Below are positions 7,323-22,202 of a stretch of DNA of 64,000 nt, one piece after another. Both the position numbers and the translations under genes were made by a program. The stretch spans positions 236,930 through 300,929 of the forward strand of contig JAUZSC010000008.1 in NCBI GenBank assembly GCA_030949825.1, in the 5' to 3' direction. This DNA comes from Sulfurimonas sp. (lineage in GTDB: Bacteria; Campylobacterota; Campylobacteria; Campylobacterales; Sulfurimonadaceae). The notes under the pieces were generated by a model. The model was not told where the DNA came from. It did not search any database and saw nothing but the letters and a program-made list of their open reading frames with translations. Every line of letters starts with the position of its first letter. Position 1 is the stretch's first letter.

Positions 7323-9611
7323 CTAAATTAATAAACTCGTATCACGGTTATCTATTTTTGAGATAAGTGCTGGAAGGGCGACTAAATCGACTACAACTGC
7401 AAGAAGAAGTGCTGTTGCCGTCACAACTCCAAAGTGGTAGTTTGGATTAAAATCACTAAACACAAAGACTAAAAATGCAAAGCTTAAAATAACGGTAGTA
7501 AAGATAATAGCAGAGCCTGCAAAACGCATTACATATTCTAAAGAATTTTGTAAATTTTCTCCGCGTTTTCTTGCCTCAATGTACTTCACCATAAAGTGAA
7601 TCGTATCATCAACAGCCACTCCTATAATAATCGCACCTGCAATGGCTACTCCCATATCTATGTCGATTTGTAACCAACCCATCACACCGACTACAAGCGC
7701 AACGGGTAAAATATTTGGAGCGATAAAAAGTGGTAACATTTTTATATTTTTAAAGATAAAAAGCATAATTATCGAGATAAGGATTATCGCTAATGTTATA
7801 GAATATATCAGCGTATATGTCACATCATGTTGCATATGCGCGAACATCTTTGTTTGTCCGTTTACAACCGCGCTATATTCAGTTTTCTCCCACCAATTTT
7901 CAACCCACTCTATCATTTCTAAGTCTTTTGAGGTATCGACCATGTTGATAGATGCTGTTACGCGTAAGAGTTGTTCGTTAATGTCCATTTTATCGTTTAT
8001 TTCCATCCCTTGAGGAAGAGAAAGAGAGTAAAGGAGTAAATACTGTGCTATTAAGTTTTTATCGTCTGGGATGCTCTTAGAGTTGTTCATTACATCATTG
8101 AAGATTTTCACTGTATCCATAAGCGAAGTAACATGTCTTGCATCTGCGTATTCTTTTTTAAAAGCTTTTCCAAAAGCATCTACAGTTTTTAAAAACTTTG
8201 GCTCTTTTATGCCATCGGGAGATTTAGAATCTACAATAATCTCATACGCCATCGGTCCTGTTAAATTGTCTTGTGTAAATTGCGTGGCTACTCGAAAGGG
8301 TACATTTTCATTAAAATAACGGACTGTATTTGAATCTACATTTGCTTTAAATATGCCTATGCCAATCACTACAAAAAGCACTCCAGATGCTAAGAGTATT
8401 TTTGTATTGTGTTTGAGTAAAAAGTCTGCATACCATTGTGAGAATTTATGTGTTTTATTTACATCTTGTGTTTGTACTGCTATCTTTGGATCTAATATCG
8501 CTAAGAGAGCTGGAACAAAAAGTATCGTAAGCACAAAGGCTAAAATCGCTGCACTCGCAGTCGCTATGCCTAAGGTTTGGATGGGAACAACTGCGGAGAT
8601 GCTAAGTGAGGCAAAGCCAACCGCGGTCGTAATAGAAGTCAGAAGAAGTGCTAGAAAATTCTTTTTTACACTGTAATGAATGGCTTCATAATTCTCCTTG
8701 CCCTCTTTTCTTGCAAGTATATAAATCCATAGTAGATGCATAGCATCTGCGATTCCAATGGCTACTACAAATACTGGAATATTTGCTGTAAAGTTATTGA
8801 GTTTAAAGCCTAGAAACACTTGAATAGATAGAACGATTAAAAAAGTAAAAATAACTACAGAGATACTTAAAATACTGAGTGAAAATTTTCTAAAAACAAG
8901 TAAAAGTAAGAACATGGCAACAAGGATTACAGCAGGTGTAAATATGCCGCCATCATGTTGTGCTATTTCTATAAATGAACTGTTTATGACTGGTCCACCG
9001 TTGAGATGAAAAGTATATCCATACTTCTCTATCTCAGGTTTTATAATCTCAAGAGCAGCATCACGGAGTTTAAAACTAACTTCAGGGTCATTCCCTGCCT
9101 TTGGTGTCATTCGCCCTACTATCATTGTAGTTTTTGCATCTGCGGAGATTAGTTTTCCTAGGATAATATCTTGTGTTATAGCGATTGCACGCTTTTTTTC
9201 TAAGTCTTCTTCACTCAAGTTCTCTACATCTTCAATAAAGTCTTCAACAAGAATTTCATCGGGATAGTCCTCATCTGCATGAACATACTGATAATTTGTA
9301 ATCGAATCAACCCGCGCAATATACTCAGTTTCCCAAAGTTTATTTGTCATCGTCTGGATGCTTTGAAGCACTTCTTTGTTAAAGATTCCATCTTCAACTT
9401 TAAAGGCGATAACTATGGCATCATCATTCCCAAAAATCGCACGAAAGTCATCGTACTCACGAAGAATGTCAGACTTTTCACCAAACCAAATTCTATAACT
9501 TCCCTCAAACTCTAAGTTTTTAAGTGAGGATGCCATTGTAAATGTAATCAATGGAATTAGAATCGCTATAAACCATCTAAATTTTATTATTTTTTCTACA
9601 AAATTATTCAT
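7323..9611 (-). CDS. RND superfamily (MMPL-type) exporter
   Basis: Two multi-TM repeats with conserved VAIGIADAMHLLWIY and IGVAVDDTIHFMVKY motifs. Confidence 0.88.
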   Translation of the reverse strand: MNNFVEKIIKFRWFIAILIPLITFTMASSLKNLEFEGSYRIWFGEKSDILREYDDFRAIFGNDDAIVIAFKVEDGIFNKEVLQSIQTMTNKLWETEYIARVDSITNYQYVHADEDYPDEILVEDFIEDVENLSEEDLEKKRAIAITQDIILGKLISADAKTTMIVGRMTPKAGNDPEVSFKLRDAALEIIKPEIEKYGYTFHLNGGPVINSSFIEIAQHDGGIFTPAVILVAMFLLLLVFRKFSLSILSISVVIFTFLIVLSIQVFLGFKLNNFTANIPVFVVAIGIADAMHLLWIYILARKEGKENYEAIHYSVKKNFLALLLTSITTAVGFASLSISAVVPIQTLGIATASAAILAFVLTILFVPALLAILDPKIAVQTQDVNKTHKFSQWYADFLLKHNTKILLASGVLFVVIGIGIFKANVDSNTVRYFNENVPFRVATQFTQDNLTGPMAYEIIVDSKSPDGIKEPKFLKTVDAFGKAFKKEYADARHVTSLMDTVKIFNDVMNNSKSIPDDKNLIAQYLLLYSLSLPQGMEINDKMDINEQLLRVTASINMVDTSKDLEMIEWVENWWEKTEYSAVVNGQTKMFAHMQHDVTYTLIYSITLAIILISIIMLFIFKNIKMLPLFIAPNILPVALVVGVMGWLQIDIDMGVAIAGAIIIGVAVDDTIHFMVKYIEARKRGENLQNSLEYVMRFAGSAIIFTTVILSFAFLVFVFSDFNPNYHFGVVTATALLLAVVVDLVALPALISKIDNRDTSLLI

Positions 9612-9628
9612 TTATAAAATTTTTAATC

Positions 9629-10562
9629 TCATTGATTTTCATTGTGTCTAAGATTAACTAAGTCTGTATCCGTTAATCCTGTAGTAATTTTTATGATGTC
9701 ACTGCTTACATTTTGTTCCAATAAACTCATAGCTATCTCTATCTTTTCTTGCTTTACACCTTCTTCAAGCCCTTGCTTATGCCCCTCTTTATGTCCCTCT
9801 TTATGTCCCTCTATTTTTCCCTCTATTTTTCCAATAACATAAGTACTCTCATAAACACTAGCTTCTCTTCTTTTATCTTCTTGTCTAGCGTCATAGGATA
9901 ACTTCTCTTTTACATCCATTTTTAAGTAGTCGAGTGTCTCTTTTGCTTTTAAGAGACCTTTTGCTTTTGGATTGTCTGGTATCTCTTCATTTTTTAAAAA
10001 GTTTATCCACTCATCTAAGGTATCTTTTGCTGTGTCATTAAAGTTTCTCACTTTAATAAGATAATACTCTGGATATATTTTTTCAACTTTGTCAGTTTTA
10101 TAAAGTTCTTTTTGTTTTTCATTGAGTTTTAGCTGTGTATGATTATGGAGCCCTATAAAGTTTGTTGTTCCTTTATAGATGTAGTCATCGCCATCACCAA
10201 AATCAAAGTATAAAATATTTATAGAGATAATTTTACTAATCTCCTTGTATTGAACACCCTCTTTGAGATGCTCTACGATAGCCTTGCTTGAAGCATATAA
10301 AATTCTTTGAAGATAATCTAGTTCTGCACTGTATTGAATCTCTATGAGTATTATCTCTTCATTTTGATTTTTAACTTTTATATCAAGTCTATTAAATTTG
10401 TCATCTCTTTGCTCTTGATTTGATTCACTTTCTAGTATCTCTAAAATAATTATATCTTCAAAAAGGAGTTCACTTAAAAAAACCTTCTAAGATTTCAAAG
10501 TTTGCTTTACTTCTTAGGATTCTTTTTATTGCCCAGTCGAATGAGATTAGTTTTCTTTGCAT
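9629..10562 (-). pseudogene. Rpn-family recombination-promoting nuclease / PD-(D/E)XK transposase-like protein, frameshifted
   Basis: MQRKLISFDWAIKRILRSKANFEILEGFF... hits TGA; the shifted frame continues ...LSELLFEDIIILEILESESNQEQRDDKFNRLDIKVKNQNEEIILIEIQ... to the annotated 140-aa ORF. Disruption at a 7-A run (10476-10482). Confidence 0.85.
9776..9831. repeat. 12-bp imperfect tandem repeats encoding K-E-G-H/K-I-E-G units
   Basis: Iterated ctctttatgtcc / ctctatttttcc units inside the Rpn-like gene. Confidence 0.75.
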
Positions 10563-10657
10563 TTTAGTTTTCCTTAATTAATAATTTCTAAAGTATGTGA
10601 TTTTATTTACATATAATACTATTAATTGCCTTTTAAGTAGAGTAAGCTTATGTTGAT

Positions 10658-11879
10658 TCAATAATAATACGCAATACTCAAAGCCATTCTTTGGTGTCTT
10701 CCTAAAAGTGCGTAGGCTGTTAGCTCTTTTTTTTGAGGGTTCAATATAATAATAATCAAGTGTTAATTTCAAAGACTCCCCAAGTCGAGTGTTTAGCTCA
10801 CCATAATAAGTCTGCTCGTCATACTCCAAATCATGTACAATGCCACCTACAAACTCTGTTGCATCTGCATTGTTTAAAGCATATCTCAAACCTACAAATA
10901 GATCATCTTGCATACTTTGGAAAAGTTCTAAATCTGTGTACTTATTATCTTCATATGTCGTGTATTTATAATACTCGTACAAAAAGCCAAGGGTTGAACC
11001 ATCTTCAAAGTCAGCAAATGCGTGTTCGACTCCTACTGCGATGTGGGAATAATCACTAATTAGCTCTGCATCATCCACAATGGCATACAGAGCTTCAAGC
11101 TTAAGCAATGTATTTCCAATAACAAGTGTATTATATGTCATAAATTTATCTACTATATATGCATTTTGAACATACGAAGTCGGTGCAGTTTGTGAAAAAT
11201 ATCTTTGGGAATCGTATCCATGCTCATATATAAAAGCAAAATCCAGAGCATACTCGGCATCTGTTGTACCGTTATATGAAAGATAAACTGAAGGCTGATT
11301 TTTATTTTTAGATGTTTTTAAGGTCTCATCATACAAAACTGCTTGGGGAAATACATAATATACATAAGGATAATTTGCCATTTTTTGATTTGGCTCATTT
11401 ACTTTTACTACAATCGATAGTTCTCCGCTATCTGTATAGTAGGAATACGAAGCATTCCAAACACCTAAGGGATTTGTAGCAAATAAATCATCCTGTAATT
11501 CATTAGGGTTAAATACATCAACGATATTTTCTAACTCTAAAGAACCCCAAAACCTTATACTTTTACCAATCTTTATACTTGAGTCTTCTAGCTCATACTT
11601 TAGATAAAGTTCATCAAGTCTTGCAAAAGTTCTTCCAGTATCCTCTACATCATTTAAAAAATCATGATAGGCGGCTTGTGCATACACCTTAGAAAATAGA
11701 CTTAAATCTTCTTTTGCATATTCTACTTCGAGTACTTGTTTGAGCGTAAATGAATTTGAATTTTTATTATCTTGCTGTGTTTTATACACTTGGGATTCTA
11801 AGTCAGCGTGTCCACTTACTTCAAAATCAGCGAACAAACAAGCAGATGCACCTAGAAGAAGCACAAGGAGGCGAATCAT
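10658..11879 (-). CDS. DUF1302-like outer-membrane beta-barrel protein, 3' end frameshifted
   Basis: Signal peptide and beta-barrel-like strands. Removing one A from an 8-A run (10727-10734) gives C-terminus ...EPSKKELTAYALLGRHQRMALSIAYYY*, a typical aromatic barrel terminus. The annotated frame instead runs to 10578. Confidence 0.75.
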
Positions 11880-12628
11880 TTTTTTAGATGTCTTTTGTGA
11901 AAATCTTTATTACTCAGTCCATTTTTTATTTTTTCTTTAGTCCATGTAAGAATCGTTGTTTTATCATTTTGAATATTTTTCATTCTTATCTTGCCTATCC
12001 GAGCGACTGAAGCAAACATCTTATAATCTTGGAAATATGCAGTTTTTAAAAGCTTCTTTTTACGGTCAAAATATTCTATTTTTTTGATTAAAAAGCTCTT
12101 AGCATCTACATAAGAGATTAATTGTGTATATCCAGAATACTTAGAAACGGGTGTACTCTGCGATATAAACACTTTTTCCCCATCAAGCGTGCCTTCTTTA
12201 GCCTCACCTTCATAAGTATACTTTTTTACATTAAAGGCACTGAGGTCTTCATAGGAAAATTCACTTCCCATAAAAGCACCTGACTTATTTTTTGACGCAA
12301 TTCTTTTTACGCGTTTAAGTGCTGGAAGGTACAACCATTGGTCATCGTCCTTGTCAATATGCTCATAACTTAAAAACTTTGTTCCCTTTACATCAGCCGG
12401 TGTTGAAAATTCCATTAATGATTTGTCCGCATCTTTGCCTTCAAGGACTTTCATATACATATGTCTCGTTTTTTCTTGTCCTCGTGCATTAATAAGTTGC
12501 ATCGTCATTATCGACACAGAATCTTCAAAACCACTCATAGCAGCATCGCTTTTTATAGCTACTTCGAGATTAGAAAGAGAAAATAAACTGGAATATAAGA
12601 ACAAAAGAAGTGTAATAGTTTTTAACAT
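11876..12628 (-). CDS. Outer membrane lipoprotein-sorting (LolA-like) protein
   Basis: Signal peptide; DDDQWLYLPALKRVKRIASKNKSGAFMGSEFSYEDLS signature of the MMPL-associated LolA-like family. Confidence 0.85.
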   Translation of the reverse strand: MLKTITLLLFLYSSLFSLSNLEVAIKSDAAMSGFEDSVSIMTMQLINARGQEKTRHMYMKVLEGKDADKSLMEFSTPADVKGTKFLSYEHIDKDDDQWLYLPALKRVKRIASKNKSGAFMGSEFSYEDLSAFNVKKYTYEGEAKEGTLDGEKVFISQSTPVSKYSGYTQLISYVDAKSFLIKKIEYFDRKKKLLKTAYFQDYKMFASVARIGKIRMKNIQNDKTTILTWTKEKIKNGLSNKDFHKRHLKK

Positions 12629-12715: not shown

Positions 12716-13540
12716 CTAACGAACTTTAGCAGCCATTTCATCTTTTAAATCCAAATAGACTTTGGCATACATACCTGGGAAAATCATATCATTTGTTTTT
12801 TCAAAGTGAATACGGATTTTAAATGTATGCGACATAGGATTTGCACTAGGAACAATTGCTTTAATATATCCAGATGCTTTATAATCAAGTGAAGGAATAG
12901 TAATATCTACCACTTTATTATCGCGTACATATTTTAAATCAGATTCTGCAACTTCTGCTTGAATCTCTAAATGATCCATATCTACAATAATCATAGCAAG
13001 CATTCCGGGTCCAATCATATCTCCAACACGGATTCTCTTTTCTACTAGCACTCCATCATTAGGAGCAAGCATTTTTAGGTATCCTGCAATTGTAGTAAAT
13101 TGTTTTGCTTTTTCAGATGCTTCTTCAAGTGTTACCTGCATTGCTTCAACCATTCTGTCTGCATTATCAGCAAATTCATTTAAATCATCCATTCGTAATT
13201 TGAAGTCTTGTTTGTTTAATGACTTTCTTCTTCTTTTTAAATCTTGTTGATCTTTTTTAACACGATATGCACGCGTTTCAAAAGCTTCTAGCATAAGTCT
13301 TGCATGTGCAAGTGCTAAATCAGCCTGAGATTCCATGATATCAAATTCAGCAGATTCAAGTTCAAAAAGAACATCTTCTCGCTTCACTCTATCGCCAACT
13401 TCAAAATTAACTTTTTTAACATAACCCATATATCTTGCAGGTATCATTTTTTGGTTATTTGAAATAACTGTTCCCGTTAGCGTTAATTGCCCTCCAAAAA
13501 GAGAACCTGCCATTATCAATGCTAATACTATATACTTCAT
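12716..13540 (-). CDS. HlyD-family efflux RND periplasmic adaptor subunit
   Basis: Signal peptide, lipoyl-like GYVKKVNFEVGDRVKREDVLFEL, long helical hairpin, VLVEKRIRVGDMIGPG. Confidence 0.85.
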   Translation of the reverse strand: MKYIVLALIMAGSLFGGQLTLTGTVISNNQKMIPARYMGYVKKVNFEVGDRVKREDVLFELESAEFDIMESQADLALAHARLMLEAFETRAYRVKKDQQDLKRRRKSLNKQDFKLRMDDLNEFADNADRMVEAMQVTLEEASEKAKQFTTIAGYLKMLAPNDGVLVEKRIRVGDMIGPGMLAMIIVDMDHLEIQAEVAESDLKYVRDNKVVDITIPSLDYKASGYIKAIVPSANPMSHTFKIRIHFEKTNDMIFPGMYAKVYLDLKDEMAAKVR

Positions 13541-13549
13541 TTTTTTCCT

Positions 13550-13960
13550 TTACCAGTTTCTTGTTTTTCTGTGACATTTCATACATTGACCAAGTATCTT
13601 GTCATACGCTTGAATCGCTTGTTGAGAGTCACCACTTTTATATCTTTGTAAGATCGTTAAAGACTTTTGGTTGATTTTTTTAACTATCTTGTTTGTCATC
13701 TGAACCTTATTGTTCATGTAGCGCGCCATTACATCCGTTTCTTCAACTTCTTCTAAAGGTGGCTTTACTCTTTGGATTGCTTGCGTTAAGTGTTCGATAC
13801 CTTCAGAAATCGTATCGTAGTTATTGTAGAAAAAACCACTTTGTATAGTATTCATAGCGAATGCCATTTCGTGCATGTCATTGATTCTGTCTTGTTTTGT
13901 ATATGGTGCTGCAAATAAAGCAGTACCAGTAAGTATAATTAATACAATTATATTTTTCAT
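13550..13960 (-). CDS. Small periplasmic c-type cytochrome-like protein
   Basis: Signal peptide and single C-terminal CMKCH heme-binding motif. Confidence 0.7.
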   Translation of the reverse strand: MKNIIVLIILTGTALFAAPYTKQDRINDMHEMAFAMNTIQSGFFYNNYDTISEGIEHLTQAIQRVKPPLEEVEETDVMARYMNNKVQMTNKIVKKINQKSLTILQRYKSGDSQQAIQAYDKILGQCMKCHRKTRNW

Positions 13961-14147: not shown

Positions 14148-14954
14148 ATGAAAAAAATTATCGTAAGCTCAATAGCAGCTATCGCATTAACAACTAGTTT
14201 ATCAGCATCTGATTACAATGTAAATCAAACTATCAAAGATATCACGGCTACATTTACAGCAATGAGTACTGACGCTAAAGAAGCAATTCAATCTGCATTA
14301 AATGGCGGTGTTGAAGTTTCTAACTCTGGAGAAAGAACTACAACTTCTGTTTCTAACAACTCTAAGGATTCTTTAGTTAAAGTTTCTGATGACGCTAAAA
14401 CTGTTGAAGTTTCCACTGTTAAAAGTACTACTGATACAACTTCTGGTATCGCTAAAGATTTAAGAGATTCTACTATTGAAATCGCTGAAGATTCTAAAGA
14501 TACTGCATCTAACACAAGTAGAGATTTCAAAGATAGTTCAACTATGGCTACTAAAGATTTCAAAGACAGCGCTATTTCTTCTTCTAACAACTTAACGAGT
14601 TCAGTTTCTACTGTTTCTGGTCATGTTAATGACGCTACTAAATCAGTTTCTAGCAATGCTAACAACTCTACAAACACTATGAGTACTGATTCTAAAGAAA
14701 CTGTAACTAATGTTTCTAAAGACGCTTCTGCTTCTATGAATACTGCAACTACGAATGCTAACGATGCTGTTAAAACAGTTTCTACTAATGTTAATGACTC
14801 TGCTAAATCAATTGCTAAAGAAATGAGTTCAACTTCTAACACTGCAACTACGAACGCTGCTTCAGCTGTTAACACTGCAACGACTAACCTTAGTAATTCT
14901 GTAAACACTGTGTCTGCTAATACTACTGACGCTATTAACAACGCTAACAAATAG
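14148..14954 (+). CDS. Secreted 11-residue (hendecad) repeat protein, copy 1
   Basis: Signal peptide MKKIIVSSIAAIALTTSLSASD; most of the mature protein can be parsed as 11-aa units (ANDAVKTVSTN VNDSAKSIAKE MSSTSNTATTN AASAVNTATTN LSNSVNTVSAN). Confidence 0.85.
   Translation: MKKIIVSSIAAIALTTSLSASDYNVNQTIKDITATFTAMSTDAKEAIQSALNGGVEVSNSGERTTTSVSNNSKDSLVKVSDDAKTVEVSTVKSTTDTTSGIAKDLRDSTIEIAEDSKDTASNTSRDFKDSSTMATKDFKDSAISSSNNLTSSVSTVSGHVNDATKSVSSNANNSTNTMSTDSKETVTNVSKDASASMNTATTNANDAVKTVSTNVNDSAKSIAKEMSSTSNTATTNAASAVNTATTNLSNSVNTVSANTTDAINNANK
14328..14945. repeat. 618-bp direct repeat, copy 1 (identical to 15362..15979)
   Basis: Direct by-eye comparison; constant offset of 1034 nt at both ends. 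Confidence 0.92.
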
Positions 14955-14978
14955 TCACTCTCTAACAACATATTCATC

Positions 14979-15018
14979 AAGCACTCCACCTTTGGTGTGG
15001 TGCTTGCCCCTTTTTTTT
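14979..15018 (+). terminator. Rho-independent terminator after hendecad protein copy 1
   Basis: AAGCACTCCACC-TTT-GGTGTGGTGCTT hairpin followed by gcccc and 8 T. Confidence 0.85.
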
Positions 15019-15172
15019 ACTTCCTGTCACTGACTACAATAAACTCTATTAAAACATCAAAAACTTAAATTAATAAGCTTATATTATAATAATATAAATA
15101 TTAAGTTATAATTTATAGATATACTGTTATAATGTCACTTAACAATCAATTAACAAAAAAAAGGTAACAACA

Positions 15173-15985
15173 ATGAAAAAAATAATTACAAGCTCAATAG
15201 CAGCAATGGCACTAGTATCTTCTTTATCAGCATCTGATTTATCAGACTTCAGTTTTGGAGATATGTTTAAAGATATGAAAGAAAGCATTACATCAATGAG
15301 TTCTGACATGAAAGAAACTTCACAATCAGCAGTAACTGGTACAGTTGAAGTTTCTAAAGCCGGAGAAAGAACTACAACTTCTGTTTCTAACAACTCTAAG
15401 GATTCTTTAGTTAAAGTTTCTGATGACGCTAAAACTGTTGAAGTTTCCACTGTTAAAAGTACTACTGATACAACTTCTGGTATCGCTAAAGATTTAAGAG
15501 ATTCTACTATTGAAATCGCTGAAGATTCTAAAGATACTGCATCTAACACAAGTAGAGATTTCAAAGATAGTTCAACTATGGCTACTAAAGATTTCAAAGA
15601 CAGCGCTATTTCTTCTTCTAACAACTTAACGAGTTCAGTTTCTACTGTTTCTGGTCATGTTAATGACGCTACTAAATCAGTTTCTAGCAATGCTAACAAC
15701 TCTACAAACACTATGAGTACTGATTCTAAAGAAACTGTAACTAATGTTTCTAAAGACGCTTCTGCTTCTATGAATACTGCAACTACGAATGCTAACGATG
15801 CTGTTAAAACAGTTTCTACTAATGTTAATGACTCTGCTAAATCAATTGCTAAAGAAATGAGTTCAACTTCTAACACTGCAACTACGAACGCTGCTTCAGC
15901 TGTTAACACTGCAACGACTAACCTTAGTAATTCTGTAAACACTGTGTCTGCTAATACTACTGACGCTATTAACAACGCTTACTAA
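15173..15985 (+). CDS. Secreted 11-residue (hendecad) repeat protein, copy 2
   Basis: Signal peptide MKKIITSSIAAMALVSSLSASD with a different N-terminal segment, then a C-terminal ~206 aa identical to copy 1. Confidence 0.85.
   Translation: MKKIITSSIAAMALVSSLSASDLSDFSFGDMFKDMKESITSMSSDMKETSQSAVTGTVEVSKAGERTTTSVSNNSKDSLVKVSDDAKTVEVSTVKSTTDTTSGIAKDLRDSTIEIAEDSKDTASNTSRDFKDSSTMATKDFKDSAISSSNNLTSSVSTVSGHVNDATKSVSSNANNSTNTMSTDSKETVTNVSKDASASMNTATTNANDAVKTVSTNVNDSAKSIAKEMSSTSNTATTNAASAVNTATTNLSNSVNTVSANTTDAINNAY
15362..15979. repeat. 618-bp direct repeat, copy 2
   Basis: Identical to 14328..14945. Confidence 0.92.
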
Positions 15986-16290: not shown

Positions 16291-17985
16291 TTAGATAGCC
16301 TTAGTTTTATTTAGAAGGATTGGTACAAATAAAAGCGAAACAATAACTGCAGCAAAAGTTCCTGAAATCAAAGCAACTCCAAGTCCACCAAATACTGGGT
16401 CACCCGCAAGAAGGGCAGAACCTAAGATGATAGCGATAGCTGTTAGCATAATCGGTTTTGCTCGAGTTGCACTTGCAATTGCAAGTGCTCTTCTTTTTTC
16501 GATGCCTTTGTCTTTTATGAGACCCTGCGCAAAATCAATGAGTAAAAGTGAGTTTCGTGAACTAATCCCCATAAGTGCAATAAAGCCAATAAGCGATGTA
16601 GCAGTAAGAAAGAATGTCTCAGTCGTTACAAGATTAGCAACCCAGTGTCCAACTATAACACCAATGATAGAAAGGAAACTTCCTCCTAATACTATACCAC
16701 TTAGAGCAAATGATTTATAATATACAACTAACAACAAGAAGATAAGGATTAAAGCCGCGATAAAAGCCCCACCTAAATCTCTAAATGTATCAAGCGTAAC
16801 TTTCATTTCGCCATCAAATTTTAAGAGATATTTTTCACCACTTTTTTTATCAACAAGACTTAAGTCAAACATAGTTGTTGAGATACCAGGAGATTTGCTA
16901 ACTTCATATCTGTCAGCAAACTGTTCCATCATCGTTTCTCTCGCATCTAGGAGTGGATACACTTGAGATACTAAATCTGTTTCAGCAACAACATTTACCA
17001 TAGTCTTTAAGTTTTTATGATAAATCATAGGCACAGAAAGCTCTTCTTTAATCTCAACAACCTCCGTAAGAGGAATCATAATTCCACGCTGATTCATAAG
17101 GCTTAACTGACCTAGTTTATTTTTAAGCAATCTAAGTGTATTTTTTTCTATAGTTTGGCTCTCTTCACTTAAAGAAACAAAAATAGATACTTGGTCGTTA
17201 AGCTCTATCGTATTCTTAACAGCAACTCCCATACCTTCAAAAGCAAGATAAAGAATCTCGTTTATTTGTTTAGCTGTCAAACCACTTTGTGAGGCTTTTA
17301 TAGGGATTAGGCTCAGTGTATATTTTGTATGGCGCTCATCCGCCATAATATCAACATCAACAAGATCTTTTGTTTTTTGTAAAATATCTGCAACTTCTGC
17401 GGCAAGTACAATAGCTTTTCGGTTGTCCTTTCCATAAACTTCAACAACGATAGAAGCTAAAGTTGGAGGACCAGCTGGCATCTCAACGAGCTTAATAACA
17501 GTTCCTCTTACAATCGGTTTACATGCATCTAAAATAACAGATCTTAATCTATGTACCATGTTAAAAGATTTTTCATCACGCCCATGTTTATCACTAAGGT
17601 TGATTACAATCTCAGCATACTCAACACTTTGCTTCATACCACTTCCCTTTACAAGACCAGCATAATCTAGTGGAGAACCTTGCCCTAAGAAAACTTCCAT
17701 ATCAACAAACTCTTCTTCTTTTTTCATAATGTTAGTTACACATTCTGAGACAATTTTTGTTTGATGAATTGAGCTTCCCTTAGGAGTATCAACATATATT
17801 GTAAAAGTATTTGTACTCTTTCCTGGCAACATCTTCGCGAGGACTAATTTTGTTGGAAGCATTAAAATTGAACCGGCGAGTGCTGCAAAAATAAGTGCCA
17901 TTACCAATAAACTTTTAAATGGTACATCTAAAATTCCAAAAATAAAGTGTTCGAATCTAGTTCCCTTATGTTCTTTTTTACTCAT
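16291..17985 (-). CDS. RND efflux permease, C-terminal half (AcrB-type)
   Basis: Begins at second-repeat TM (FKSLLVMALIFAALAGSILMLP); SSRNSLLLIDFAQGLIKDKGIEKRRALAIASATRAKPIMLTAIAIILG. Confidence 0.85.
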   Translation of the reverse strand: MSKKEHKGTRFEHFIFGILDVPFKSLLVMALIFAALAGSILMLPTKLVLAKMLPGKSTNTFTIYVDTPKGSSIHQTKIVSECVTNIMKKEEEFVDMEVFLGQGSPLDYAGLVKGSGMKQSVEYAEIVINLSDKHGRDEKSFNMVHRLRSVILDACKPIVRGTVIKLVEMPAGPPTLASIVVEVYGKDNRKAIVLAAEVADILQKTKDLVDVDIMADERHTKYTLSLIPIKASQSGLTAKQINEILYLAFEGMGVAVKNTIELNDQVSIFVSLSEESQTIEKNTLRLLKNKLGQLSLMNQRGIMIPLTEVVEIKEELSVPMIYHKNLKTMVNVVAETDLVSQVYPLLDARETMMEQFADRYEVSKSPGISTTMFDLSLVDKKSGEKYLLKFDGEMKVTLDTFRDLGGAFIAALILIFLLLVVYYKSFALSGIVLGGSFLSIIGVIVGHWVANLVTTETFFLTATSLIGFIALMGISSRNSLLLIDFAQGLIKDKGIEKRRALAIASATRAKPIMLTAIAIILGSALLAGDPVFGGLGVALISGTFAAVIVSLLFVPILLNKTKAI

Positions 17986-19621
17986 TATTTTTCTCCTTCT
18001 TGTACTTTTTGAACTTCTTTAATTTTTTCTGTATCACAACACACAGCATGTCCATCAGTTTTCTTTATTTTTAATAATTTCTTACCTAAATAAGGAGTAA
18101 ATATATAGGCAATAAATAATGAAGCCAGTAGGGCAACAGGAACATTATAAGGAATAGGTTTCATAAACTCACCCATCATTCCACCAACAAATGCCATCGG
18201 CACCATCGTTAAAATAATGGCAAATGTAGCAACTGTAGTAGGTGCTCCAATCTCATCTGTAGCAGTAACGAGTAACTCATCCATATCTCTATCTTCGCTT
18301 CCATGTTGGTGCATATGTCTGTGAATATTTTCAATAACAATAATTGCAGCATCTACGAGTAAACCAAGTGAGAGTAAAAATGCGAAAAGCGTAATTCTAT
18401 TCATCGTTTGATCTGTCATATAAGCTATAAAAAGCGTAATCGATAAAATAGCTGGAACAGTAAATGTAACGATAAGCGATTCTCTCCAACCTAAAAAGAA
18501 CACAAGCATAACAGCAATAATTATAATCGTAATAACAAGGTGGTTCATCAGTTCATTAACCGCTTCGTTTGCTCGCTCACCATAGTTTCGAGTAATAATG
18601 CTACCAATACCCAGTTTTTCGAGTCTTTCTTTATTTTCTTCTAAGAGTTCTTTTACATCATCTGCTACAAAAACTGCATTTGTCCCTGCAAGTTTAGATA
18701 TTGCAAGTGTAATCTGCTCATATTCTAATTGATTTTTAAAAATGATACTTGCACTTTGTTTATTTTGAACATCAATAGAATCAGTTACGGTCGCGATATC
18801 TTTAAGATAAGTCGGACTTCCCATATACTGCGCAACTATAATATTTTCAACATCGCTAATAGAATCAATCGCATTTTTCATTCCAAATACCACAAGCTTA
18901 TTATCTTGTGTATTTAGCTTGACGCTTGGAACCCGAGTACCAATGGCTTGAATACCTTGAACAATTTGCCCTAAAGATAAATGGTAACCTCTAAGCTTTC
19001 CTAAATCAACTTCAACATTATACTGTTGTTTATGCGCACCTTTGAGCTCTGTTTTTGCCACATTATCTAAGGCACTTATATCTTTTTTTAAGATTTTCAA
19101 CCTCATGTAAAAAGCTAGGATAATCGAGCGTTTGATTTTTTTTGATAAAATGCTACACCTACGATAGGAATATCGATATCTATATCAAAGGGTCTCACAA
19201 GTGGTTGCATTACATTCTTTGGAAGCATGTCCATGTTTTGCATTACTTTGTCATAAAGCTTTAGATTAGAGCTTTCTCTATCTTGACCTATATAATACAT
19301 AACATTGATAATAGCTACATTATCTACACTCATAGCATATATGTTTTCAATACCTTTAATCTCTCTAAGTTTTTGCTCAAGTGGCTCAACTAGAATTTTT
19401 TCTATCTCTTTTGGTTTAAGTCCAGGAGCAGGTATAATTATAGTACCTCCACTTATCGAGATCTGTGGGTCTTCTTCACGAGGCATAACTTCTAAGGCTA
19501 TATAACCCATTGTAAATAAAAATACTGCCAACACAGCAGTAAGAGGACTATACAAAAAGGTCTTTGCCAAAGAACCTGCATAATCGCTAGTTTTAATATG
19601 CGATAAATCTTTTTCTTCCAT
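17985..19621 (-). CDS. RND efflux permease, N-terminal half, frameshifted
   Basis: ORFs 19115..19621 and 17985..19106 join when one A is removed from the 8-nt run at 19136-19143, giving ...GVAFYQKNQTLDYPSFLHEVENLKKDISALDNV... Confidence 0.85.
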
Positions 19622-19958: not shown

Positions 19959-21090
19959 ATGTCAAAAACACCAATAACAGCAAAATGTTCTGCTAACATC
20001 ATCGTAATATCTGCTATCCCTGCTCTCTTTTTTTGCAGCAATTGTACTAGGTTATCTAGGTTTAATCCCTATCAAAGTCCCTTTTACATCAGTCATAGTT
20101 ATAGGATTTATATTTTTTATATTTTTACTTTTTGCAAAAAATAATGCGAATTACAGTATTTGTAAAATGCGTGCTTCTTATTTAACGATGGAAGATGAAC
20201 TTAAAAATCAACTTGAGCGCAACTCACTCATACTAAATAATGAAAAGAAATCAATTTTAAATATAGATCTATTTCTTAACGAGTATTATTCAAAAACAAG
20301 AAATGATAACTTTGTTGCGGTAGCAGCATCAGTATTTCCAATGCTAGGTATTTTAGGTACATTTATGGCTATCGCTATCTCTATGCCTGACTTTTCAGTT
20401 CAAAATACGGAGGCACTTGATAATGAAATTACAATTTTACTAAGTGGTGTTGGCTCAGCTTTTTATGCTTCAATCTACGGTATTTTATTATCATTGATTT
20501 GGACCTATTTTGAAAAAAGTGGTTTAAGTAAAGTAGATAAATACTTCGCAAATATAAAAACTACATTTAACAACAGTACTTGGACTGAAAATGAATTAAA
20601 AATTCATGAATTATCTCAAATAGAAAACAAAGACAATAAGTTTATTACAGCGCTTAAAGAAACATTTAACCTTGAGTTTGTACAAACAATCAATGACCAG
20701 CATCTCAGTAATTTACGCGAAGTAATGAATGAAAGTAATAATAACTTTGCAATCGTTGCGAACCATCTCAAAAGTGCGTCTGCTGAACTCACAAAAACAT
20801 TAAACCAACTTGATAATAACCAAAATGCACTTGAAGCACAAAATAATATTGACAAACACTTACAAAACTTTACACTTGCAACAAATGAATTTGAGAAAAA
20901 CTCAAAAATATTTAGTGCGCAACTTAGTATCTCACTCAACAAAACATTTGAAAAAATCGATACTGAAATCGGAGATATCGTTGTTAAACTTGCAGACTTT
21001 GCAACGCATGTAAGCCTACAAAGTGAAGAAGTACAAAATAGTGTTAAGTCTTACCACAACGCACTCGCAAGTCAAGGTAGAATAAGATAA
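19959..21090 (+). CDS. MotA/TolQ/ExbB proton-channel family protein with long coiled-coil tail, frameshifted
   Basis: Removing one T from the 7-T run (20028-20034) joins MSKTPITAKCSANIIVISAIPALFF to AAIVLGYLGLIPIKVPFTSVIVIGFIFFIFLLFAKNNANYSICKMRASY...; GILGTFMAIAISMPDF and LLSGVGSAFYASIYGILLSL motifs. Confidence 0.85.
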
Positions 21091-22202
21091 ATGTTTAAAA
21101 AACAATCTACAAATAACGAAACAAATTTTTGGATATCATATGCTGACCTTATGGCAGGATTATTATTTATCTTTATCCTCTTGATTGGGGCTATTATAGT
21201 AAAAGCTATAGTGCTTAAAAATGATTTAAGTTCTAAAGAAAGTTCTTTAAACAATAAGATAAATACGCTTTTTCTTCGTGATGCAGAAATACAGAAACTA
21301 AAAAAACTTTTAGCAGATAGAATGAAAGACCTTTTAGATTCTGAACAAGCACTTCTCATTACAAAAAATGCCCTTAAACTTCGAACAGAGGAAATTGTAA
21401 ATTTAAATAATATTCTACTTGCACATAATACTAAAATTGACGACTTCAATGGAAAAATAGTAATTTTACAAAATCTACTTGATGAAAGTACAGCAAAAGA
21501 TGCTGATCAAAACAAGAAACTGCAAGACTATGAAAGTAAAGTTCTTATACTTTCAAATACACTAACAGATAAAACAGATGCTCTAAAATTAAAAGATGAA
21601 AAGCTCATAGACCTACTTAGAATTTTAGAAGAAAAAGAAACTAACTACGATAGGCTTATCGCTAAACTTAAGGCTCAAAAGCAAGTATTAAAAGTCTTAC
21701 AGGAATACGAATTAAAGTTATTGCAGAATTAAAAGCATCCCTTGGTAAAAAAGTTCAAATAGACCCTACAAGTGGTTCACTAAGATTATCTTCAAGTATT
21801 TTATTTCCAAAAAATCAAGTTAAACTCAAAGAAGCATTTAAGCAAGACCTCAAAAAACTCTATATTGAGTATATGGATGCGCTTATGTCAAACAGAAACA
21901 TAGCATCGCAAATCGATCGTATTGTGATTGAGGGGCATACAGATAGTGATGGTAGCTACCTTCTTAACCTAGATATTTCTCAAAAAAGAGCTTATGCTGT
22001 TATGAGTTACCTTGCATCCCTTGAATACACCAAAAGACATAATCTCATGCCTCTTTTAGTGGCAAGTGGTCGCTCATACCAAGACATAATTAAAGTCAAT
22101 GGTGTCGAAAACAAGGATGCTTCAAGAAGAATCGAGATTAAATTCACCCTCAAAAATGATGATGCAATGAATGAGATTGAGAGAATTTTAGATTATGAAT
22201 GA
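21091..22202 (+). CDS. MotB-like/OmpA-domain protein, frameshifted
   Basis: N-terminal FWISYADLMAGLLFIFILLIGAI, coiled coil, C-terminal OmpA IDRIVIEGHTDSDGSYLLNLDISQKRAYAVMSYL; halves join as ...KQVLKSLTGIRIKVIAELKASLGKKVQIDP... with a +1 A near 21690-21693. Confidence 0.85.

Follow-up and report, generated by a model that had tools for sequence, protein, structure and literature searches.

Exported 11-residue-repeat proteins of Sulfurimonas and their genomic association with an RND adaptor and a c-type cytochrome

Alpha-synuclein and the exchangeable apolipoproteins contain amphipathic 3-11 helices built of 11-residue units, which fold on lipid. In perilipin-4 gapless 11-mers form a 3-11 helix with a weak hydrophobic moment, a Thr/Val-rich apolar face and almost no aromatic residues, and the contribution of length is additive (PMC5889406, PMC8064757). 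Its moment is 0.257 at a hydrophobic fraction of 0.35, as compared to 0.30 and 0.47 for alpha-synuclein (PMC5889406), and a 4T>S mutant of perilipin-4 no longer binds droplets (PMC5889406, PMC8064757). LEA group 3 proteins repeat the motif TAQAAKEKAGE (PMC6559209). Envelope-located bacterial proteins of 11-mer repeats are already known as well, BilRI of Aggregatibacter being a disordered LEA_4-type outer-membrane lipoprotein, the repeats of which end in KD[A/T] (PMC8096337).

How do the products of two adjacent genes of Sulfurimonas sp. compare to these systems? The genes lie in a stretch of 64,000 nucleotides that was analysed as a whole and is called the window, and a first-pass annotation had described their products as secreted proteins of 11-residue repeats belonging to no recognised family. 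BilRI is the closest precedent in kind and perilipin-4 the closest in physics. The gapless 11-mers of perilipin-4, its weak moment, Thr/Val-rich apolar face, near lack of aromatic residues and additive length recur in the repeat proteins, albeit perilipin-4 is eukaryotic, cytosolic, net positive and of higher hydrophobic fraction, and homology was not detected. With BilRI the repeat family would share the envelope location, the hydrophilic character, the intrinsic disorder and repeats ending in KD, its own units often reading [KRN]D-[S/T]. However, BilRI is a lipoprotein of Lys/Asp/Ala LEA chemistry to which LEA_4 is assigned, whereas in the repeat family the signal is of the plain Sec type, the chemistry is Ser/Thr/Asn/Asp, the LEA_4 match stays below the cut-off and the RND and cytochrome neighbours are conserved.

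One gene in two copies and its 11-residue repeat

Both open reading frames are present as annotated (Table 1) and each starts with a Sec-type signal peptide (MKKII..SSIAA..SLSA/SD) without a lipobox Cys, the number of Cys residues in either copy being zero. Judging from the DNA, the tandem pair is the result of a recent duplication or gene conversion, that is, one protein present twice. Since 618 bp are exactly identical, the copies are not independent examples; the description as a tandem pair thus holds for two adjacent genes but not for two independent cases. Moreover, tandem arrangement is rare among the relatives, most of which are single genes, exceptions being three copies at locus L073 and two at L074. 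The first ~180 bp, outside of the identity, differ between the two genes, and copy 1 has lost the family motif FSFGDMFKDMK and carries SDYNVNQTIKDI where SDFSFGDMFKDMK would be expected.

The copies also differ in their upstream regions. The pattern TTAAG-N6-TTTAG-N11-TATAGTT precedes the repeat gene at 26 of 40 loci, and the best dyad of this promoter-like element is found in 25 loci, as compared to 7 at most in shuffles. Copy 2 has the element with identical spacing; copy 1 retains only TTAAG (14070) and TATAAT (14097), which are likewise 27 bp apart. The full pattern occurs about once per genome and essentially only in front of the repeat gene, which argues against a wider regulon sharing it.

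Table 1. Coordinates of the repeat genes and of neighbouring features in the window
Feature	Coordinates	Strand	Remarks
Hendecad protein, copy 1	14148..14954	+	268 aa; Sec signal ~1-20; diverged N-terminal segment; ~20 gapless 11-residue units
Hendecad protein, copy 2	15173..15985	+	270 aa; Sec signal; family motif DFSFGDMFKDMK; ~20 gapless 11-residue units
618-bp segment in copy 1	14328..14945	+	identical to 15362-15979
618-bp segment in copy 2	15362..15979	+	identical to 14328-14945
Promoter-like element of copy 2	15101..15133	+	TTAAG (15101), TTTAT (15112), TATAAT (15128); spacing 11 and 16
c-type cytochrome, divergent partner	13550..13960	-	signal; C-terminal CxxCH; cytochrome c'/b562-like four-helix fold (predicted)
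Short RND-type periplasmic adaptor (HlyD_D23), divergent partner	12716..13540	-	274 aa
Split RND permease, C-terminal half	16291..17985	-	ACR_tran positions 524-1016
Split RND permease, N-terminal half	17985..19621	-	two ORFs, 373 + 168 aa; in relatives one of ~525 aa

From about residue 60 onwards the lag-11 residue identity of the window proteins is 0.24, as compared to 0.118 +/- 0.022 and a maximum of 0.20 in 2000 shuffles, and lags 22 and 33 are likewise among the top lags. A 3-11 helix advances by 98.2 deg per residue (360x3/11). The Eisenberg moment of the window proteins peaks at 98.0 deg per residue with 0.33 (shuffled maximum 0.19), and the peak lies at 98.0-98.5 deg in both of them and in every relative measured. 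It is close to zero at the heptad angle of 102.9 deg and also at 100 deg, the angle suggested for the check, at which it averages out over such a length; the expected amphipathicity is therefore real, but at about 98.2 deg. In addition, the register is unbroken, with ~20 consecutive 11-residue units and zero insertions in each protein. All three measures agree with the parsing over ~200 residues proposed in the first-pass annotation, and repeat detection, named there as a possible refuter, found the period. An 11-residue periodicity of this strength greatly exceeds what chance would produce.

The consensus over 1051 units reads S-[TVA]-K-T-[VI]-S-N-[DN]-x-[NKR]-D, with Ser in 70% of the units at position 1 and in 74% at position 6, Thr in 40% at position 2 and Thr or Ser in 24% at position 9. 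The repeats consist of 18.9% S, 15.6% T, 14.3% D, 10.9% N, 9.1% K, 7.4% A and 2.5% E, and in the mature sequences of the members, taken together, Cys is absent and Pro occurs once. The earlier description of the chain as near-uncharged goes too far, since ~20% of the array residues are charged, near balance, with a net charge of -5/-6; in every member the net charge is negative (-2 to -24). Mean hydrophobicity is low (-0.08 to +0.09) and the hydrophobic fraction is 0.29 in the window proteins and 0.21-0.26 in relatives. A scaffold for N-glycosylation was considered and rejected, D/E-x-N-x-S/T sequons being depleted (6 vs 67 expected; 0 in the window pair).

Positions 5, 9 and 2 (V/I, A/L, T/V) lie side by side on an 11/3 wheel and make up a contiguous narrow apolar stripe, edged on both sides by Ser 1 and Ser 6 and backed by positions 10, 3, 7, 11, 4 and 8 (D/N/K). 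For copy 2, AlphaFold with an alignment of 30 sequences predicts one continuous helix of 184 residues (86-269) with pLDDT ~73-89 over most of its length, residues 49-99 being of low confidence, albeit AlphaFold readily draws single helices for repeats of this kind. There is no tertiary packing, and the pTM of 0.28 implies no tertiary arrangement. Neither a Foldseek search of the predicted helix against the PDB (nothing significant) nor a search of the family profile against solved chains gave a match. The Fauchere-Pliska moment, calculated for a 3-11 helix, is 0.29 for the window proteins and up to 0.38 in relatives. As 0.29 falls between the values of perilipin-4 and alpha-synuclein, the comparison with such helices is quantitatively reasonable; the angle of 98.2 deg and the moment of ~0.26-0.30 typical of this class are found, but not its hydrophobic fraction of >=0.35 nor a charge suited to lipid. 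Despite its weak hydrophobicity the chain is thus sufficiently amphipathic to be a helix that seeks surfaces.

The stripe with its flanking Ser residues would fit coiled-coil assembly equally well. According to this possible, though doubtful, alternative, chains pair along the V/I-A/L-T/V stripe into a right-handed or straight hendecad coiled coil and self-assemble into long rods or filaments, periplasmic or extracellular. The three apolar positions per 11 residues do have the 3-4-4 spacing of hendecad coiled coils in one long, unbroken predicted helix, the small Ser on both sides of the stripe would permit close packing, and length varies among the members in whole units. However, the core would be weak, given the frequency of Thr at position 2 and of Thr/Ser at position 9, and no relative is found among solved structures.

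Spread and conserved neighbourhood of the family

Relatives are encoded at 34 loci of species-representative genomes, all titled Campylobacterota, the hosts being Sulfurimonas, Sulfurovum, Sulfurovaceae and MAGs filed as Helicobacteraceae, Campylobacteraceae or Campylobacterales. Among 397 genomes drawn evenly from the phylum, 19 had a strong match (E < 1e-15) and seven a weak one (E 4e-5 to 6e-4); the weak matches that were read (a porin in G338, an LEA-like lipoprotein in G152, G240, and coiled-coil proteins of 873/897 aa) are unrelated. No relatives were found on plasmids or on viral contigs, and a mobile or phage origin was rejected on this ground. Members start with the signal and a conserved segment, DFSFGDMFKDMKD-x-TSMSHDA, followed by about eight conserved, slightly irregular units ending in SSTMATKDFKD and by a variable array; many end in the tail DDYKEYLKLKAKYE, which the window copies lack. 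Array size ranges from ~13 to 41 units, and of the 1366 internal indels between members of >60% identity, 1169 have a length divisible by 11 residues, an overwhelming bias even though the pairs are not independent. Length thus varies freely, as would be expected of an interaction surface to which each unit adds its share.

Upstream of the repeat gene a divergent c-type cytochrome is followed by a short RND adaptor. The divergent pair of cytochrome and repeat gene, within ~600 bp, is found in 42 locus records (40 without two duplicates), and the adaptor adjoins the cytochrome at nearly all loci. In the 397-genome draw the cytochrome subtype (called at E < 1e-30) is present in 19/19 genomes with a strong match to the repeat protein, and the repeat protein in 19/20 genomes with the subtype, though the genomes are related and the 19 co-occurrences are hence not 19 independent events. 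In G379, the one genome with the subtype but no repeat protein, the cytochrome is solitary and lacks the adaptor, as does a second cytochrome copy of G343; conversely, a few repeat-gene copies without a cytochrome nearby are found at L003/L091, L035 and L079. A split RND permease, the halves of which match ACR_tran ~1-500 and 520-1016, adjoins most Sulfurimonas-type loci and lies within ~10 kb at several Sulfurovum-type loci, and a secreted DUF302 protein is encoded downstream in many loci. The partner cytochrome is predicted to be a four-helix bundle (pTM 0.76) in which C126, C129, H130 and Met29 are invariant; Foldseek lists cytochrome cb562 variants first and then cytochrome c' (TMt ~0.56-0.79, E at best 0.0056), and PF01322 scores 19.7 and 22.4 bits, below its cut-off of 26.5. 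The genomic tie of the repeat family to this cytochrome and the short RND adaptor, often with the split permease, is the main new result; it is unexpected and is absent from the first-pass annotation. From the gene neighbourhood alone we infer a functional link of the repeat protein to this module.

A number of further observations concern the surroundings of the module. RND permeases usually are single chains of ~1000 aa; that of the module is encoded in two halves at essentially all loci (for example L006, L011, L031), and in the window the N-terminal half is broken around an A-rich run near 19130-19140, by a frameshift or an assembly error. The minus strand of the window at 7323-12628 encodes an HAE3/MMPL-type RND exporter (762 aa), an exported barrel-like protein of 433 aa and a LolA-like/DUF1329 protein, which run into the adaptor-cytochrome operon, and a short open reading frame between the exporter and barrel genes (9629-10051, minus strand) has a subthreshold match to PDDEXK_2, a PD-(D/E)XK transposase family. 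MMPL and LolA-like genes occur together also at L011 and L014, which suggests that in some species lipids or hydrophobes are transported. The DUF302 proteins are ~350, 700 or 1040 aa long (L024, L034, L070, L071, L072), as if a 350-residue unit were present one to three times. At L078 (9500-10920) an inverted duplication places two outward-facing cytochrome genes around repeat-gene sequence readable on both strands. A MotA/ExbB-like and MotB/OmpA-like pair lies beside the module in many Sulfurimonas loci (window 20167-21732, plus strand; L035, L036); a Zorya-like reading of these genes was rejected, the ZorA/ZorB models scoring far below cut-off and the pair not being constant. HlyD-type and TolC genes reported as up in Sulfurovum S8 transcriptomes (PMC10045233) could not be mapped onto the module.

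Literature searches found no paper describing the family, the window proteins pass no family model and there is no characterised match, in agreement with the earlier judgement; judged by sequence, the exported repeat proteins belong to an undescribed family of Sulfurimonas/Sulfurovum-type Campylobacterota. The apolipoprotein model PF01442 scores 20 bits for the window and at most 62 bits among relatives (cut-off 90). Reversed sequences reach 58 and 62 bits and one register-permuted sequence 56 bits; since decoys score as high, such matches reflect periodicity and composition, not descent, and homology to apolipoproteins was rejected. This reversed-decoy control is worth repeating whenever apolipoprotein-type matches are reported. 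Viral fusion-protein helices and phage tape measures were also dismissed as kin, being generic helical repeats without any match to the family profile. The best NCBIfam match, the exported Neisseria Ag473 lipoprotein (NF047840), reaches 21-23 bits at a cut-off of 100 and differs in being a lipoprotein. A 212-aa frame on the minus strand of L059, an LEA-like lipoprotein of another Campylobacterota genome, is also exported and has a lag-11 identity of 0.22, but it has Lys/Glu/Ala repeats and a lipobox and matches the query only marginally; no module genes were recognised around it (L085).

LEA_4 (PF02987) scores 15.1 bits for both genes in their own genome and 10.9/13.8 bits by hmmscan, its cut-off being 51.1. 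An LEA-group-3-like stress shield, a disordered hydrophilic protectant of membranes or proteins in the envelope under osmotic, cold or oxidative stress, would accord with this subthreshold match, with the 11-mer repeats, the extreme hydrophilicity and the apolar positions 2/5/9, and has its bacterial envelope precedent in BilRI (PMC8096337). The repeating 11-residue motif of LEA group 3 is indeed found, but its Lys/Glu/Ala chemistry is replaced by Ser/Thr/Asn/Asp, and a general protectant would hardly be tied so constantly to an RND adaptor and a cytochrome, which makes the shield unlikely. Type I antifreeze protein has an 11-residue repeat with Thr at i, i+11, and the flat Thr/Val/Ala face with 11-residue spacing could recall such an ice-binding helix. 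Against it stand Ala of merely 7%, the strict neighbourhood and the wide spread over Sulfurimonas/Sulfurovum-type species, which takes in lake MAGs as well as genera known above all from hydrothermal vents (PMC10045233); ice binding is accordingly highly improbable.

Possible mode of action and meaning

The reading that we prefer, with a probability of roughly 0.4, is a giant amphipathic helix of the envelope that attaches, through a large number of weak units, to an extended surface and serves the RND/cytochrome module. It draws on the moment peak, the single predicted helix, the unit-wise indels, the conserved N-terminus, the constant partners and the promoter-like element found essentially only in front of the repeat gene. 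Sec export is predicted to carry the protein to the periplasm or beyond, where the free chain, being rich in residues that form helices poorly (Ser, Thr, Asn, Asp and Val), would be largely unfolded and would become helical upon contact. Many weak units would then provide avidity along an extended envelope surface, which may be a membrane leaflet, another hydrophobic interface or a neighbouring copy of the same protein, while the conserved Phe/Met-rich N-terminus (DFSFGDMFKDMKD) would dock the protein to the adaptor/cytochrome module. The protein would be a periplasmic coat or scaffold for the RND/redox system rather than an enzyme, its action resembling by analogy that of perilipin-4, synuclein or the bacterial LEA-type BilRI. 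Against a lipid coat speak the low hydrophobicity and a hydrophobic fraction of 0.21-0.30, as compared to 0.35 in perilipin-4, and the negative net charge would disfavour anionic membranes as target. A bolder and rather improbable version would make the family a periplasmic counterpart of perilipin, in which a very long 3-11 helix coats a hydrophobic interface, be it a membrane leaflet, an exported hydrophobe or zero-valent sulfur, for the handling of which sulfur-oxidising Campylobacterota would have a dedicated split-RND/adaptor/cytochrome system.

The analysis defines an unnamed exported family, the natural 11-residue repeat of which is strikingly regular and runs to ~41 units. Its members form a natural series of lengths on which the summation of weak amphipathic units can be studied, be it on lipid or in hendecad coiled coils, and what had been an orphan low-complexity protein can now be tested as a component of the envelope in sulfur oxidisers of ecological importance.
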